A program made the translations under genes and the position numbers. Shown here piece after piece: positions 84-5,663 of a stretch of 64,000 nucleotides of DNA. The DNA is from Deltaproteobacteria bacterium tcs-42. Its GTDB lineage: Bacteria; Desulfobacterota; Desulfuromonadia; Desulfuromonadales; Geopsychrobacteraceae. Under the pieces are notes generated by a model, which made no database searches, was not told where the DNA came from, and worked only from the letters and a program-made list of their open reading frames with translations. The stretch spans positions 1 through 64,000 of the forward strand of contig LLYT01000003.1 in the NCBI GenBank assembly GCA_002049545.1. The letters are read 5' to 3'. The stretch's first letter is position 1. Every line of letters begins with the position of its first letter.

Positions 84-1421
84 CTACAGCCCGTAAAGTT
101 TCATTTTTTCCCACAGATTTTTGCGGCTGATCCCCAGAACTTCGGCCGCTTCGGTTTTATTGCCACTGGTTTTTTTCAAAGCGCTCCGAATACATTTTTT
201 TTCAGTAACGGCGACAGCAGCAGCAAGGTTTGACTCTTTAGTTTCGATTAAGTCGTTTTGAATTCCACTGATCTCCATCGGCAGGTTCCAAAGCTGGATC
301 TGCGGTGCCGGAGCCAATACAGTTACCCGTTCCAGGATATTTCTTAACTCGCGAACGTTGCCGGGAAACGGATATTTATTCAGAGCCTGGGAAGCATCGC
401 CTGAAAGGCTGAACTCTACCCCCCTCTCTTTCCCAAATTTTTCCAGGAAATAAGCGGTTAATTCCAGAATATCTTCTTTCCTTTCCTGCAAAGTTGGAAC
501 CGCTATGGGAATAACTTGAAGGCGGTAGTAAAGATCTTCTCGAAACTTCCCTTTTCTAACCTCTTCGGCAAGATTTTTGGTGGTGGAGCAAAGAACCCTG
601 ACATCAATCTTGATCGGGTTTTTTCCACCAACCCGTTCAATTTCTTGCTCCTGCAATACCCGCAGTAACTTGACTTGCAGGACAACGGGCATGTCACCGA
701 TTTCATCAAGCAGGATAGTCCCCTGATCGGCCAACTCAAATTTACCGATAGACGTTTGATCGGCACCAGTGAACGCCCCTTTTTCGTGACCGAACAACTC
801 CGATTCCAGAAGTCCGCTTGGAATTGCCGCACAATTGACCCGGATATAGGGCTTGTCAGCACGCCGGCTTTCATAGTGGATAGCAGCAGCAACCAGTTCT
901 TTACCGGTACCGCTTTCACCATGGATAAGAACCGTCGAATCGGATTGCGTTACTTGACTGATCAGGTTGAGCATCCGTTGCATCGGGGCACTGGAACCAA
1001 TCAGAGGCTGGCGTTGGTCACAGCAATTTTCCAGAGAAACACAGCGTGCCTTAATAGTCAGAATGTTCAGAAGGCGCTCAACCCGTAAGGTCAGGTCATC
1101 CAGATCAAACGGCTTTAAAATATAATCTGCCGCACCTTTTTTCAGACAGTTCAATGCATCATCGGTATTACCGTGAGCTGTAATCAGAATCACCTCGGTA
1201 CGCGGTGAGAACTGCTTGACTTCATCGAGTAGTTTCTCCCCATCGATACCAGGCATACGAATATCGGAGATAATCAGGTCGTAGTTGTTCTTTTTCACCA
1301 AACTTAAAGCATCGGTTCCATTGGTTGCCTGATCCACCACCCAGCCATGATTCTTTAAACGATCAAGCACCGTTATACGCACAATCTCTTCATCTTCAAC
1401 GACCAGAATTCGTGTATTCAT
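84..1421 (-). CDS. sigma-54-dependent response regulator (NtrC family)
   Basis: 445 aa with the full NtrC layout. The receiver domain (about 1-120) has phospho-acceptor Asp53 in SDIRMPG. The AAA+ domain has Walker A GESGTGKE at 168-175 and the sigma-54 contact loop GAFTGA at 215-220. A Fis-type helix-turn-helix sits at the C-terminus (about 405-445). It should bind enhancer sites and drive open-complex formation by RpoN polymerase. It lies 23 bp downstream of the cognate kinase in one minus-strand operon. The divergent haoCA genes carry a sigma-54 promoter and paired inverted repeats, so haoCA is the likely target; that link is inference. Family assignment is firm. Confidence 0.95.
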   Translation of the reverse strand: MNTRILVVEDEEIVRITVLDRLKNHGWVVDQATNGTDALSLVKKNNYDLIISDIRMPGIDGEKLLDEVKQFSPRTEVILITAHGNTDDALNCLKKGAADYILKPFDLDDLTLRVERLLNILTIKARCVSLENCCDQRQPLIGSSAPMQRMLNLISQVTQSDSTVLIHGESGTGKELVAAAIHYESRRADKPYIRVNCAAIPSGLLESELFGHEKGAFTGADQTSIGKFELADQGTILLDEIGDMPVVLQVKLLRVLQEQEIERVGGKNPIKIDVRVLCSTTKNLAEEVRKGKFREDLYYRLQVIPIAVPTLQERKEDILELTAYFLEKFGKERGVEFSLSGDASQALNKYPFPGNVRELRNILERVTVLAPAPQIQLWNLPMEISGIQNDLIETKESNLAAAVAVTEKKCIRSALKKTSGNKTEAAEVLGISRKNLWEKMKLYGL

Positions 1422-1444: not shown

Positions 1445-3010
1445 CTATTGAAAAGGGACTGTCAGGGTAAAGCAAGCACCGCCATAAGGACTGTCTTGCA
1501 CAGAAATGTTACCACCTAGGCGTTCGATCAATGAATGAGAAACAGAAAGCCCCAGCCCTGTCCCTTCGCCAACCTCTTTGGTGGTAAAAAACGGTTCGAA
1601 AATCTTATCTTGATTTTCCTCGGCAATACCGGGTCCGTCATCAGAAATTTCAATATGAATGGATCCCATATGCAAGCGGCTGTACACGTGAATTGTTCCG
1701 CTATCTTTCCCGATAGACTGGACAGCATTAGCCGCCAGGTTTATGATCACCTGACGCAAGGCTTCAATTCCGGTCATCACCTGCTTGCCGATATTTAACT
1801 GCAAATCCAGTTGGATATTTTTATGACCCATACAGATTAATTCTACGCAGTCCTTAATTTCGCCATCAATATCACCAGATTTTATTTCCAGAGGTTCTTT
1901 CCTGCCGATATTGAGAAGTTGCTGGACAGTTCCCTTAATTCTATCGATTCCCTGGCCGAGCAAGGTCAGATAACGGTTTTGCAACTCCGGTTGATCCAGG
2001 TTCCGTTGCATTGTCTGGACACAGTTCTGCATCCCGCCGAGGGGATTATTGATTTCATGTGATATCCCGGCAACCAGACGCCCCAACGCTGCCTGCTTTT
2101 CACTCTGAAATACCTGCTCACGGATTGTATCAAGCTCCCGCTGTGAGGTTTCCAGTCGTTGACAAAGTCGACGAAAATGTTTACTCAGCACCCCTATTTC
2201 ATCATTGCGGTCAATTGCTCCGGAGTGATTGGAGAAAGGTTGTTCAGGATAGTGATCCATGGCGTCAGCAAGCAACTTTAACCGTCTGCCGACCAGGGAA
2301 TTAAAAAGCAAGTATAGACTGAGGGAAACAATTATAATTGTTGCCAGCGCAATACCCAGCAACATTCGGTTGTTAGTCTTTATTTCTGCATAAGCCCAGT
2401 CCATCGGAATCGTAACATTCATCCCCCCACGAATATCTCCGATGATATACCTCTCTCGGCTATGGCACTGGAGACATTGAGAATTAACTGTCAGAGGAGC
2501 CATATAGCGCAAACGGTAGTTCCCCTCAACCCGTTCTATCTCAATCGCCTCACCGGCACCGGCAGCGGCAGCAAAGCTCTCCAGACTACGTCGTTCAAAA
2601 CTGTCAGGGGCGTTATCCGGGTTGACCGGTTGCAGACTGGTAACATTAAACTGTCCCATCCCCTCTTTTGCCGCATAGGCCGACAGCTCCCGAGTGACCA
2701 TGGCAGGGTTACGCTTTACCAACCAATTGCCCTGCGCGTCCTGAATTGCACCCTGCTCAAGAAATGGATTGCTTTCCACTCCGGGAGCTTTGACCAAGAA
2801 AAGACCGTTGTGATCCGAGACCCATTGCCGGGTCAAACGGATCTGAGTGAAGAGCATTTTAGCCTGCTGGGTCGCATGCTCAACCACCAGATCTTCCTGA
2901 AAATCGGAGGTTCGATAAAAAGTGATTCCATACGAAATGCAAATCACCAGGCTGATCAAAAGAATTAGTTTGGTTTTTAACTGCATATAAAAGGAAACTC
3001 TATTAATCAT
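1445..3010 (-). CDS. membrane sensor histidine kinase with periplasmic c-type haem domain
   Basis: 521 aa. TM1 is at about 14-32. The periplasmic region (about 35-210) resembles the DUF3365/Tll0287-like family and carries one c-type haem motif, C179-x-x-C182-H183. TM2 is at about 216-238, followed by a HAMP-like linker, a coiled coil, a HisKA box with His318 in SHEINNPLGG, and a C-terminal HATPase with GTGLGLS. A covalent haem outside the membrane suggests sensing of redox state or a small ligand such as NO or nitrite; the ligand is not visible in the sequence. It is the first gene of the operon with the sigma-54 activator and diverges from haoCA. A second possible start is Met9 (2986); neither start has a strong Shine-Dalgarno sequence. 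Confidence 0.93.
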   Translation of the reverse strand: MINRVSFYMQLKTKLILLISLVICISYGITFYRTSDFQEDLVVEHATQQAKMLFTQIRLTRQWVSDHNGLFLVKAPGVESNPFLEQGAIQDAQGNWLVKRNPAMVTRELSAYAAKEGMGQFNVTSLQPVNPDNAPDSFERRSLESFAAAAGAGEAIEIERVEGNYRLRYMAPLTVNSQCLQCHSRERYIIGDIRGGMNVTIPMDWAYAEIKTNNRMLLGIALATIIIVSLSLYLLFNSLVGRRLKLLADAMDHYPEQPFSNHSGAIDRNDEIGVLSKHFRRLCQRLETSQRELDTIREQVFQSEKQAALGRLVAGISHEINNPLGGMQNCVQTMQRNLDQPELQNRYLTLLGQGIDRIKGTVQQLLNIGRKEPLEIKSGDIDGEIKDCVELICMGHKNIQLDLQLNIGKQVMTGIEALRQVIINLAANAVQSIGKDSGTIHVYSRLHMGSIHIEISDDGPGIAEENQDKIFEPFFTTKEVGEGTGLGLSVSHSLIERLGGNISVQDSPYGGACFTLTVPFQ

Positions 3011-3035
3011 AAGGGTTTATATGTTTGCCTTGGCT

Positions 3036-3085
3036 GCTACCGAACGGTAACATGGCTGGCAAGGCAAAGGCTACCCTCTGGTAAC
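3036..3085. promoter_or_regulatory. two putative activator (enhancer) sites, GCTACC-N4-GGTAAC
   Basis: Two copies of the same interrupted palindrome, GCTACC-N4-GGTAAC, lie at 3036-3051 and 3070-3085, centres 34 bp apart. The N4 spacers differ (gaac, ctct) while the arms are identical, as expected for protein-binding sites. They sit about 50-100 bp upstream of the sigma-54 -24 box, the usual place for NtrC-family enhancers. A further 9-bp inverted repeat (TTTGCCTTG at 3024-3032, CAAGGCAAA at 3060-3068) brackets the first site. Binding by the adjacent regulator is inferred. Confidence 0.7.
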
Positions 3086-3136
3086 AAAAACAACATTCAA
3101 TATTACATATGTTAGTGAAAAACAAAGTATTTATTA

Positions 3137-3152
3137 TGGCATAATCTTTGCT
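3137..3152 (+). promoter_or_regulatory. sigma-54 promoter of haoCA
   Basis: TGGCAT at 3137-3142 and TTGCT at 3148-3152 place the invariant GG and GC exactly 10 bases apart, close to the consensus TGGCAC-N5-TTGCW. The predicted transcript start is near 3162-3164, leaving a leader of about 125 bases before haoC. The operon next door encodes a sigma-54 activator. Confidence 0.8.
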
Positions 3153-3286
3153 ATATCAAAATAAGGTGGATGATTTGTTGCTTTTGAATCAACATCTGAT
3201 ATTAATTATTGCTGTAGCTATTATGTCATTAGATGAAACTCTCTCGAAAAGAATTATGACTGCCACTCAAGTAAGGAGGTGATTGA

Positions 3287-3859
3287 ATGTCGAGTAAAAA
3301 AAACCCGAAGCCAAAGATGTCCGCGGCAAAGAAAATGTGGATTTTGGGAGCGACGTTTGGCGTTGTGGGTGCGATGGTTCTGGTTCTGGCTTCGGGCTTT
3401 ATGGTTGAGTCAACCAACACCGATAAATTTTGTGTTAGTTGCCATGTCATGGAGCCCTTTAGAACCTCGTGGAAAGCTTCTGTCCACGGCGGTAAAAACC
3501 CGCAGGGGTTTACTGCACAATGTGTCGATTGCCATCTGCCACATGACGGTTTTGTCAATTATCTGGTCACCAAGGCAAGAACAGGGTTAAGCGACGTTTA
3601 CCACAATTTTTTCATTGATGGGGAAAGCTTTGATTGGGCCGCAAACACCGAGGAAAATCGGCTTAAATTCACTTTTGACAGCGCCTGTCACCGTTGTCAC
3701 CACAATTTGACCCCACCGGGAATATCAACAGGTGGCTTTATCGCTCACCGGGCCTATATGAGGGGCGAGGCAAACAAAATGTGTGTTGAGTGTCATATGC
3801 ATGTTGGTCACAAGGATATGCTGCGGACAGTCGAAGAATTTTATGCAACGCAAAAATAA
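3287..3859 (+). CDS. NapC/NrfH-type membrane tetrahaem cytochrome c (HaoC-like)
   Basis: 190 aa. A short lysine-rich cytoplasmic N-terminus is followed by one TM anchor (about 17-40) and a periplasmic domain with four CxxCH haem motifs at 49-53, 79-83, 134-138 and 166-170. NapC/NrfH proteins take electrons from menaquinol and pass them to a periplasmic multihaem reductase. The next gene, 22 bp away, is an octahaem HAO-like cytochrome, an arrangement described as haoCA in Campylobacterota. The start has a consensus Shine-Dalgarno, AAGGAGGTG, 6 bases upstream. Four haems match NrfH. The role as quinol dehydrogenase for the neighbour is inferred from context. Confidence 0.92.
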   Translation: MSSKKNPKPKMSAAKKMWILGATFGVVGAMVLVLASGFMVESTNTDKFCVSCHVMEPFRTSWKASVHGGKNPQGFTAQCVDCHLPHDGFVNYLVTKARTGLSDVYHNFFIDGESFDWAANTEENRLKFTFDSACHRCHHNLTPPGISTGGFIAHRAYMRGEANKMCVECHMHVGHKDMLRTVEEFYATQK

Positions 3860-3881
3860 CTAAGCGAAAAGGAGGTTTCAA

Positions 3882-5240
3882 GTGAAACAAATTTATGGAA
3901 AAATTGGACTGATCAGCCTTGCCTGTCTGCTGGTCTGGAGTGGGATGGCCTTTGCTGCTAATACCCCGAACCTGGCGCCGAAAAAAATCGTGGTTAAACG
4001 CGGATACACCAAAGAGGCAGCCAAATGTGTCGAGTGTCACGCCGATAAGACCCCAGGGGTGGTCTCTGATTGGAAGACGAGTCGCATGGCAAATGCCGGT
4101 GTCTCTTGTTACGATTGTCACGTGGTTGAAGCAAGCTCACTAATGGCGAGCCAGTGCTCGGGCCTCAAGGGGACCGACATCATGATCTCACCAATGGTCT
4201 CTTCCAAAACCTGCTCTCGCTGTCACCCCTCTGAAGTGGACGAATTTTTAAAAAGTGCTCACGCCGACCTGTCACGTGACGCAGTTTATGACGAAGAAAA
4301 GGCTGCGGGTAAGTTGGTTGGGCTGCAACTACAGCATGAAGGTGCCGGCTTCCTTGGTGTTGAGCCAGGTTCTTTGGTGAACGAAGCTTCTCGGACTTCC
4401 GGTTGTGCCGTATGCCACGGTAGTGTGGTCGAGGTTGGCCCCGACAACAAACCGATCAAGAGCACTTGGCCCGGCGGCGTCGGTACTCTTTATCCCGACG
4501 GTTCGGTAGGTAACTGTACCGTATGTCACACCCGTCATGGCTTTTCAATCGCCGAAGCCCGCAAGCCGGAAGCTTGTGCCAGCTGCCACCTTGGCCCTGA
4601 TCATCCAAATATCGAAATCTACCATGAGTCCAAGCACGGCCAAATTTTCCTCACTGACGGCGAAGATTGGGAATGGGAAAGCGCAACCGGTACCTGGCAA
4701 CCAGGCGACTACCGTGCCCCAACTTGTGCAGTATGCCACATGTCCGGTATCGGTGAGCTTGAGACCACCCACAATGTCGCTGATCGTCTTAAGTGGGACC
4801 TGATGCACAAGCGCAGCGAAATTCGCAGCGGTGCCCGTGGTGACGGTGAAAAAGGTGATAAGTTGATGCGCAAAGTCTGCATTAACTGCCATGGACCAAG
4901 TCACACCGACAACACGCGGCAGATGCTTGATAGCGCAGTCGCTTTATACAACACGTATTGGGATGGTGCCGTGGAAATGAAGAAGGAACTCGCAGCCAAA
5001 GGTTTGCTGGGTGAGGATCCATGGCGTGATGGTTTCCAGGAATTGATGTACTACCTCTGGCATCATACCGGTCGTCGTGCCCGCCATGGTGCAGCTATGA
5101 ACGGTCCAGACTATGCACACTGGCATGGATTCTTCCAAATGTTCCAAGTATACAAAGATATGGAAGGTATCTATAATTGGCGTCTCGAAAACAATAAGAT
5201 CGAAGAACTAAGTACCGTTATGAGTACTGGACCAGAATAG
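3882..5240 (+). CDS. octahaem hydroxylamine oxidoreductase-like cytochrome c (HaoA)
   Basis: 452 aa with a Sec signal peptide cut near residues 25-26 (AFA|AN). It has eight CxxCH motifs at 49-53, 76-80, 111-115, 175-179, 212-216, 232-236, 282-286 and 333-337, the HAO complement. Asp240-His241 (GPDHPN) fits the Asp-His pair near the active-site haem. The C-terminal half has helical WHH and HWHG segments as in the family. In ammonia oxidisers HAO oxidises hydroxylamine. Homologues paired with a NapC/NrfH anchor and lacking cytochrome c554 partners are proposed to work reductively, on nitrite or hydroxylamine, and this pair fits that group. Whether the tyrosine that cross-links the P460 haem is present cannot be judged without alignment. 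The start is GTG with AGGAGG upstream. Confidence 0.92.
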
Positions 5241-5265: not shown

Positions 5266-5297
5266 AAAAGCCCCCGTTTAACGACGGGGGCTTTTGC
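5266..5297 (+). terminator. rho-independent terminator of haoCA
   Basis: AAAAGCCCCCGT and ACGGGGGCTTTT form a GC-rich stem with a very short loop, ending in a T-run, 26 bp after the haoA stop codon. The hairpin is nearly perfect and would end the haoCA transcript. Confidence 0.9.
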
Positions 5298-5324: not shown

Positions 5325-5663
5325 ATGATGAAAAGGTTTTTTATTATTTTTCTATTGTTGTTACTTGCCACAAGTTGCTTTGCTTTGACAGAGAGTTTCG
5401 GCCCGCAATACGACACTGTCGTCAAGATATTTCAGGGAAAAGGCGAGCCGTATGCCATGGATGCCAACTGGAAAAGCCAGACGTTGCTAACCATAGGGGT
5501 TTTTAACCACAGCAAGGACTATGATCAATATGCAAGTCATGCCTGTGACGTCATTGAGAAAAATGGTTTTCAGGGAAAAGGTGTTGCGGCGCAGATTGTC
5601 GATATGAGAAAGCTGATAGAGAGCGAAGAATGGGTCGTATTGGGGGAGGCTCAATGCAATTAA
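5325..5663 (+). CDS. small secreted protein, unknown function
   Basis: 112 aa, not recognised. A hydrophobic N-terminal signal (about 4-21, ending SCFA) predicts export; the Cys in ATSC is only a weak lipobox, so cleavage by signal peptidase I is as likely as a lipoprotein. The mature part is about 90 residues with two cysteines, one in the last three residues, and no haem or metal motif. It starts 85 bp after haoA beyond a terminator, so it probably has its own promoter. ATG at 5325 and 5328 are both possible starts. Its stop codon overlaps that of the convergent ferredoxin by 4 bp. A link to the HAO pathway is only positional. Confidence 0.7.
   Translation: MMKRFFIIFLLLLLATSCFALTESFGPQYDTVVKIFQGKGEPYAMDANWKSQTLLTIGVFNHSKDYDQYASHACDVIEKNGFQGKGVAAQIVDMRKLIESEEWVVLGEAQCN

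Follow-up and report, generated by a model that had tools for sequence, protein, structure and literature searches.

The reverse hydroxylamine:quinone redox module (reverse-HURM) consists of HaoA plus NapC/CycB. For Nautilia, the parts of the published account drawn on here propose that HaoA and a NapC-type cytochrome form a nitrite-reducing module, and describe its expression as nitrate-induced (PMC3701875). In Desulfovibrio, NrfS-NrfR is a nitrite-responsive sigma-54 two-component system that activates nrfHA and has nap as a predicted further target (PMC6456213, PMC5701242). The NrfR motif is very similar to that of LurR, for example GTCCGCTTTTCAAGAC, and NrfR binds LurR-type sites (PMC6456213). 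When joined to signalling modules, Tll0287 domains show the properties of NO sensors, with NO bound on a covalent haem c (PMC12889525).

The DNA analysed here, referred to as the window, is a stretch of 64,000 nucleotides from Deltaproteobacteria bacterium tcs-42. The gap upstream of haoCA (3010–3287) contains two copies of the motif GCTACC-N4-GGTAAC with their centres 34 bp apart, and is flanked by a divergent kinase/NtrC-type regulator pair on the minus strand and by haoCA (3287–5240) on the plus strand. The predicted distal activator site, site 1 (3036–3051, plus strand, GCTACCGAACGGTAAC), is centred at approximately −119.5 from the predicted transcription start, and the predicted proximal site, site 2 (3070–3085, plus strand, GCTACCCTCTGGTAAC), at approximately −85.5. 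Downstream of both lies a predicted sigma-54 (−24/−12) promoter (3137–3152, plus strand, TGGCATAATCTTTGCT; predicted transcription start at about 3163), 67 bp after site 2 and 101 bp after site 1. The initial annotation had described two motif copies with this spacing upstream of a −24/−12 promoter, and the positions of all three elements bear it out. The features expected of a sigma-54 promoter of the enhancer-dependent class are present: −24/−12 GG and GC, repeated upstream dyads, and an activator with an AAA+ domain, a GAFTGA motif and a Fis-type helix-turn-helix.

That activator, the NtrC-type response regulator proposed to bind both sites (84–1421, minus strand; PF00072, PF00158, PF02954), has receiver, sigma-54 activator AAA+ and Fis-type helix-turn-helix domains, with GAFTGA at residue 215 and the recognition helix SRKNLWEKM encoded at 102–128 (minus strand). 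Its partner is a sensor histidine kinase (1445–3010, minus strand; PF11845, PF00512, PF02518) in which a periplasmic Tll0287-like (haem-c Cache) domain is fused to the kinase. The PF11845 match scored 70 bits against a cut-off of 24, and the domain carries the haem-c attachment motif CLQCH, read from the sequence at kinase residues 179–183 (2462–2476, minus strand). A sequence search of the sensor domain against the PDB gave no match. Orthologues of the kinase begin MQLKTK, which corresponds to window position 2986 instead of 3010; judged from this comparison, 2986 is probably the true start.

On the other side of the gap, haoC (3287–3859, plus strand; PF03264, four CXXCH) encodes a tetrahaem NapC/NrfH-type quinol dehydrogenase, whose best NCBIfam model was NrfH, below the cut-off (87.8 versus 134.2 bits). 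The product of haoA (3882–5240, plus strand; PF13447) is an octahaem HAO-like cytochrome c with eight CXXCH motifs and an HAO-family sequence. Among solved structures its nearest chain was 4qo5 (E 9e-49), with the oxidising HAOs ranking behind it. The close relatives found by gene name were from Desulfuromusa, including D. kysingii, whose cultured strain DSM 7343 has the cassette (L096). A strong terminator-like hairpin (GCCCCCGTT...AACGACGGGGGC followed by a T-run; 5267–5297) lies directly 3′ of haoA, and haoCA is therefore probably a two-gene transcript. Beyond it, a 112-aa small protein with a signal-peptide-like start is encoded at 5325–5663, and had no Pfam match.

The core G-TACC-N4-GGTA-C occurs at three places in the organism's own 2.55-Mb genome, two of them in this gap. 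Chance alone would give approximately 2.4 such places, and 0.0006 pairs no more than 250 bp apart; this count is post hoc, and the real test is conservation. The third strict site (C34:22853, GATACCCAGCGGTATC) is probably a chance occurrence. Lone exact sites were also seen within coding genes of the genus at L083, L085, L087 and L088, where they lack a −24/−12 promoter and are taken as chance, and the lone site at L086 is likewise without a promoter. When two mismatches were allowed, the genome scan became uninformative, giving 58 and 54 matches where the reversed control gave 82 and 78.

Conservation was surveyed in 136 genomes of the order Desulfuromonadales. Of these, 23 held the paired-site pattern and none the reversed-pattern control; an exact site followed by a −24/−12 promoter was found at 23 places in the same genomes, with zero matches for the controls. 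Within the genus, exact copies mostly came as tandem pairs with a constant spacing of 34 bp and a common direction. A phylum-wide search for a pair at 34 bp found nothing outside the order, by a pattern that is blind to the spacings of 32–33 bp seen at L100 and L111. Regions upstream of kinase orthologues had two sites in every readable case (29/29, site 1 being present in each), spaced 34 bp apart in 22, 33 bp in five, 32 bp in one and 31 bp in one; the weakest second copy, at L274, had four mismatches. In all 28 regions with a readable promoter, the promoter began 67–69 bp beyond the first base of site 2, and its GGCA and TGC were invariant in those 28, in a scan that required GG and GC but neither the rest of the consensus nor a fixed position. 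The geometry of the unit is thus almost fixed, with two sites 31–34 bp apart and a promoter 67–69 bp from site 2. In the loci with 34-bp spacing, the site arms were at 96–97% consensus, compared with 37% for the upstream flank, 49% for the inter-site spacer and 52% for the sequence between site 2 and the promoter. We read the element as a conserved enhancer.

Site 1 of the window is bracketed by a 9-bp inverted repeat, TTTGCCTTG (3024–3032) and CAAGGCAAA (3060–3068). This nested repeat had been noted in the initial annotation and is truly there, which might suggest that the sites are a chance repeat or the remnant of a hairpin around site 1. It is confined to the window: the longest counterpart in the 28 other orthologous regions was 7 bp, at one locus, and the others were 0–5 bp. 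The repeat was accordingly ruled out as a functional element, and the conservation of the sites, with no matches for the controls, refutes the chance or hairpin origin, to which we assign a negligible probability.

The two copies had also been called palindromes with differing spacers. Both are as described, but they are near-palindromes only (GCTACC as against GTTACC), and their direction is conserved. Of 58 sites, 51 have C at position 2 and 55 have A at position 15, and this conserved asymmetry gives each site a direction, which was always the same relative to the promoter. The spacer varies freely in site 2, where there is no trailing ACA. That of site 1 is constrained: it reads purine, mostly A, A (in 27/29) and mostly C/T, and ACA follows the site.

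Besides the window's own genome, 29 others had a kinase orthologue (30 in total), at 63–80% identity; the next best match was at 34%. The site pair and the kinase occurred together in 22 genomes, the pair alone in one, the kinase alone in eight and neither in 105 of the 136 (Fisher p ~1e-17). Seven of the eight kinase-only genomes were readable and each had two sites at 31–33 bp, while in the eighth the region is cut by a contig end. The one genome with only the pair, G055, is an assembly of 470 contigs without a detected kinase orthologue, and the absence is probably an assembly gap. Its site pair lies ahead of mobA, where the pair and promoter are perfect (L081:5117–5166). The association of the motif with the kinase and regulator (p ~1e-17; 29 of 29 regions) agrees with the proposal that it is the predicted binding site of the adjacent regulator.

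Absence of the motif upstream of orthologous haoCA loci had been named as evidence that would count against this proposal. Among 80 named haoA loci, nine had an orthologue of the kinase/regulator, and the motif was found in 9/9 of these. It was found in only three of the 71 loci without an orthologous kinase/regulator and was missing from the other 68. The motif therefore goes with the regulator, and not with haoCA. Two of the three exceptions, L099 and L104, have a PAS-type activator with a nearly identical recognition helix (GISRKSLWEK); in the third, L100, a response regulator starts downstream of haoA and its DNA-binding end runs off the contig. The PAS-type activator (L099:1011–2411, L104:2464–3859) has no receiver domain and lies just ahead of GTTACC-N4-GGTAAC sites, which at both loci precede a porin-haoC-haoA operon.

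The helix GISRK[NS]LWEK was present in nearly all activators adjacent to TACC-N4-GGTAAC, including three that adjoin molybdopterin oxidoreductases (L307–L309). The latter belong to a different two-component system, and their sites are accompanied by a −24/−12 promoter. In one outlying orthologue, L235, the C-terminus of the regulator reads GISRKNAFARR, perhaps owing to a sequencing frameshift. The haoCA regulator of Halodesulfovibrio (L126) shares 32% identity, carries another helix, and adjoins TGTCAGA-N4-TCTGACA; helix and site thus change together. A common site code across several activators is suggested by these sequences. The site alone does not identify its regulator, since the activators of L099, L104 and L307–L309 use the same motif. 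With at least two further types of activator carrying this helix beside TACC-N4-GGTAAC, another protein might read the sites at haoCA while the adjacent regulator works elsewhere. We regard this as unlikely, as the pair tracks the adjacent kinase and regulator throughout the order, and in each of the 29 regions that could be read it was situated in the divergent gap ahead of the kinase.

A factor of the CRP/FNR type such as HcpR was also considered as the binder, as its regulon is predicted to include nrfHA in Desulfuromonas and Geobacter (PMC1274295). The published HcpR motif, wyTTGACnnnnGTCAArw, does not match GCTACC-N4-GGTAAC (PMC1274295), and no TTGAC-N4-GTCAA was seen in the 3010–3287 gap; moreover, a −24/−12 promoter requires an enhancer-binding protein. 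HcpR was rejected on the mismatch of motifs, and binding by a factor of this type is very improbable.

The operon placed after the cassette differs between genomes. In most cassette genomes that lack haoCA, NrfH and NrfA follow, with scores of 669 bits for NrfA (cut-off 595) and 156 for NrfH (cut-off 134). NrfA was present in 18 of the 19 non-haoCA cassette genomes versus none of the ten of the haoCA type; in the sole genome without it, G082, the contig ends in nrfH. In G008 the contig stops before the target, and NrfA is encoded elsewhere in the genome. When the haoCA and nrfHA labels were placed on the kinase tree, four changes were needed, and well-supported branches make three of these unavoidable. 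The haoCA-type G009 is the fully supported sister of G019, which has nrfHA, and the nrfHA-type G071 and G073 are placed among haoCA types. The output operon has thus been swapped at least three times. The haoCA cassette of G030 comes from a draft genome, where its contig measures 5 kb, and might reflect transfer or contamination.

The closest kinase relatives of G009 are G019 and G008, yet its sequence between site 2 and the promoter was 86% identical to that of G058, in the Desulfuromusa group, compared with 33% for G019 and 29% for G008. The swap junction therefore appears to lie within the enhancer. We tentatively propose, at somewhat less than even probability, that the enhancer is a docking junction, at which nrfHA or haoCA, passing from one lineage to another with its own promoter and proximal site, is spliced onto a resident kinase/regulator pair. 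If so, unrelated enzymes would be exchanged beneath one unchanged sensor.

The motif had been offered as a means of finding the regulon genome-wide. In the organism's own genome the strict site-plus-promoter pattern matched once, at haoCA; the idea of a genome-wide regulon is borne out only in part, with wider targets seen in relatives. There, napA-like genes (L082 and L310, with similar arrangements in L109 and L111) and mobAB (L081 and L082) have sites and a promoter in front of them, and in L163 mobA-moeA has a site ahead of it but no recognised promoter. The napA-like proteins scored best against NapA models, under the curated cut-off. These targets concern the reduction of nitrate and the molybdenum cofactor used for it, in keeping with a nitrate/nitrite response. 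NrfA and a close NapA were both sought in the window's own genome and neither was found; hcp is present.

The sites could instead serve mainly to repress or autoregulate the kinase/regulator operon, given the divergent layout and the distance of only about 25–50 bp between site 1 and the kinase start. We consider such a role as the main one improbable, because the distance between site 2 and the promoter is fixed (67–69 bp) while that from site 1 to the kinase start, by the extrapolated start, varies from about 7 to 123 bp, and because the same sites precede napA-like and mob genes outside the divergent gap. Autoregulation may occur in addition to activation of haoCA.

From the sites, the promoter, their geometry, the co-occurrence with the regulator, the helix–site correlation and the exchange of output operons, all computed here, we infer DNA binding, the direction of regulation, the signal and the enzyme activity. 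It is highly probable, in our assessment, that the regulator encoded at 84–1421 uses the two sites as its upstream activating sequence, that they form part of a portable nitrite-response cassette, and that HaoCA stands in for NrfHA. A periplasmic signal, probably NO or a nitrite-derived species, would be received at the covalently bound haem c of the kinase; by analogy with other fused Tll0287 domains, the kinase probably senses NO through this haem. Once signalled, the kinase would phosphorylate the adjacent regulator, which would then oligomerise on sites 1 and 2, its GISRKNLWEKM recognition helix reading the oriented near-palindromes. The GAFTGA loop would act on sigma-54 to open the promoter at 3137–3152 and switch on haoCA, and the HaoCA produced would reduce nitrite. 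Elsewhere in the Desulfuromonadales, nrfHA would be the operon switched on by this same combination of kinase, regulator, sites and promoter. As haoCA and nrfHA alternate under the same switch, HaoCA is probably a nitrite-reducing enzyme here, and most likely replaces NrfHA as the nitrite-reducing system. It may carry out quinol-linked reduction of nitrite to ammonium, or to hydroxylamine that Hcp would then reduce.

The cassette offers a specific candidate binding motif, together with a recognition-helix code that would apply to a family of sigma-54 activators of the Desulfuromonadales, as well as independent, regulation-based evidence on whether the octahaem HAO-like cytochromes of anaerobic ammonifiers are nitrite reductases. 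If they are, haoCA could be annotated as a functional replacement for nrfHA in Desulfuromusa and its relatives, and the potential for nitrate reduction to ammonium in marine sediments, where surveys mostly target nrfA, would be counted differently. We found no description of GCTACC-N4-GGTAAC in the open literature, subscription papers being mostly outside the search.

The locus shares with NrfS-NrfR a divergent kinase and NtrC-type regulator, a sigma-54 promoter, proposed control of a probable nitrite reductase operon and, in relatives, sites at napA-like genes. It differs in its site, since GCTACC-N4-GGTAAC is not LurR-like (NrfR being compared by its published motif only), and in its output, which is haoCA here. 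In most relatives of the nrfHA type, the placement of the cassette and its promoter point to control of nrfHA. The helix comparison was made with the Halodesulfovibrio regulator; that regulator, as given above, has only 32% identity to the one here and a different recognition helix. The Halodesulfovibrio pair beside haoCA also has a Tll0287-like sensor domain: at L126:5081–5420, the gap that separates haoCA from a divergently placed regulator and hybrid Tll0287-type kinase holds the palindrome TGTCAGA-TTTT-TCTGACA. Judged by its sequence, this is a parallel system with another site, similar in form to published LurR sites. Like the reverse-HURM of Nautilia and Campylobacter, as far as the parts of the account drawn on here extend, the locus joins an octahaem HAO-like cytochrome to a partner of the NapC/NrfH type and belongs to genomes that lack NrfA (PMC3701875); here haoCA belongs to a sigma-54 cassette in which it alternates with nrfHA, and those parts describe no such cassette. 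With the upstream activating sequences of NorR, LurR and NtrC the element shares multiple dyad sites ahead of a −24/−12 promoter, but it has another sequence, a conserved site direction and a near-invariant spacing to the promoter.
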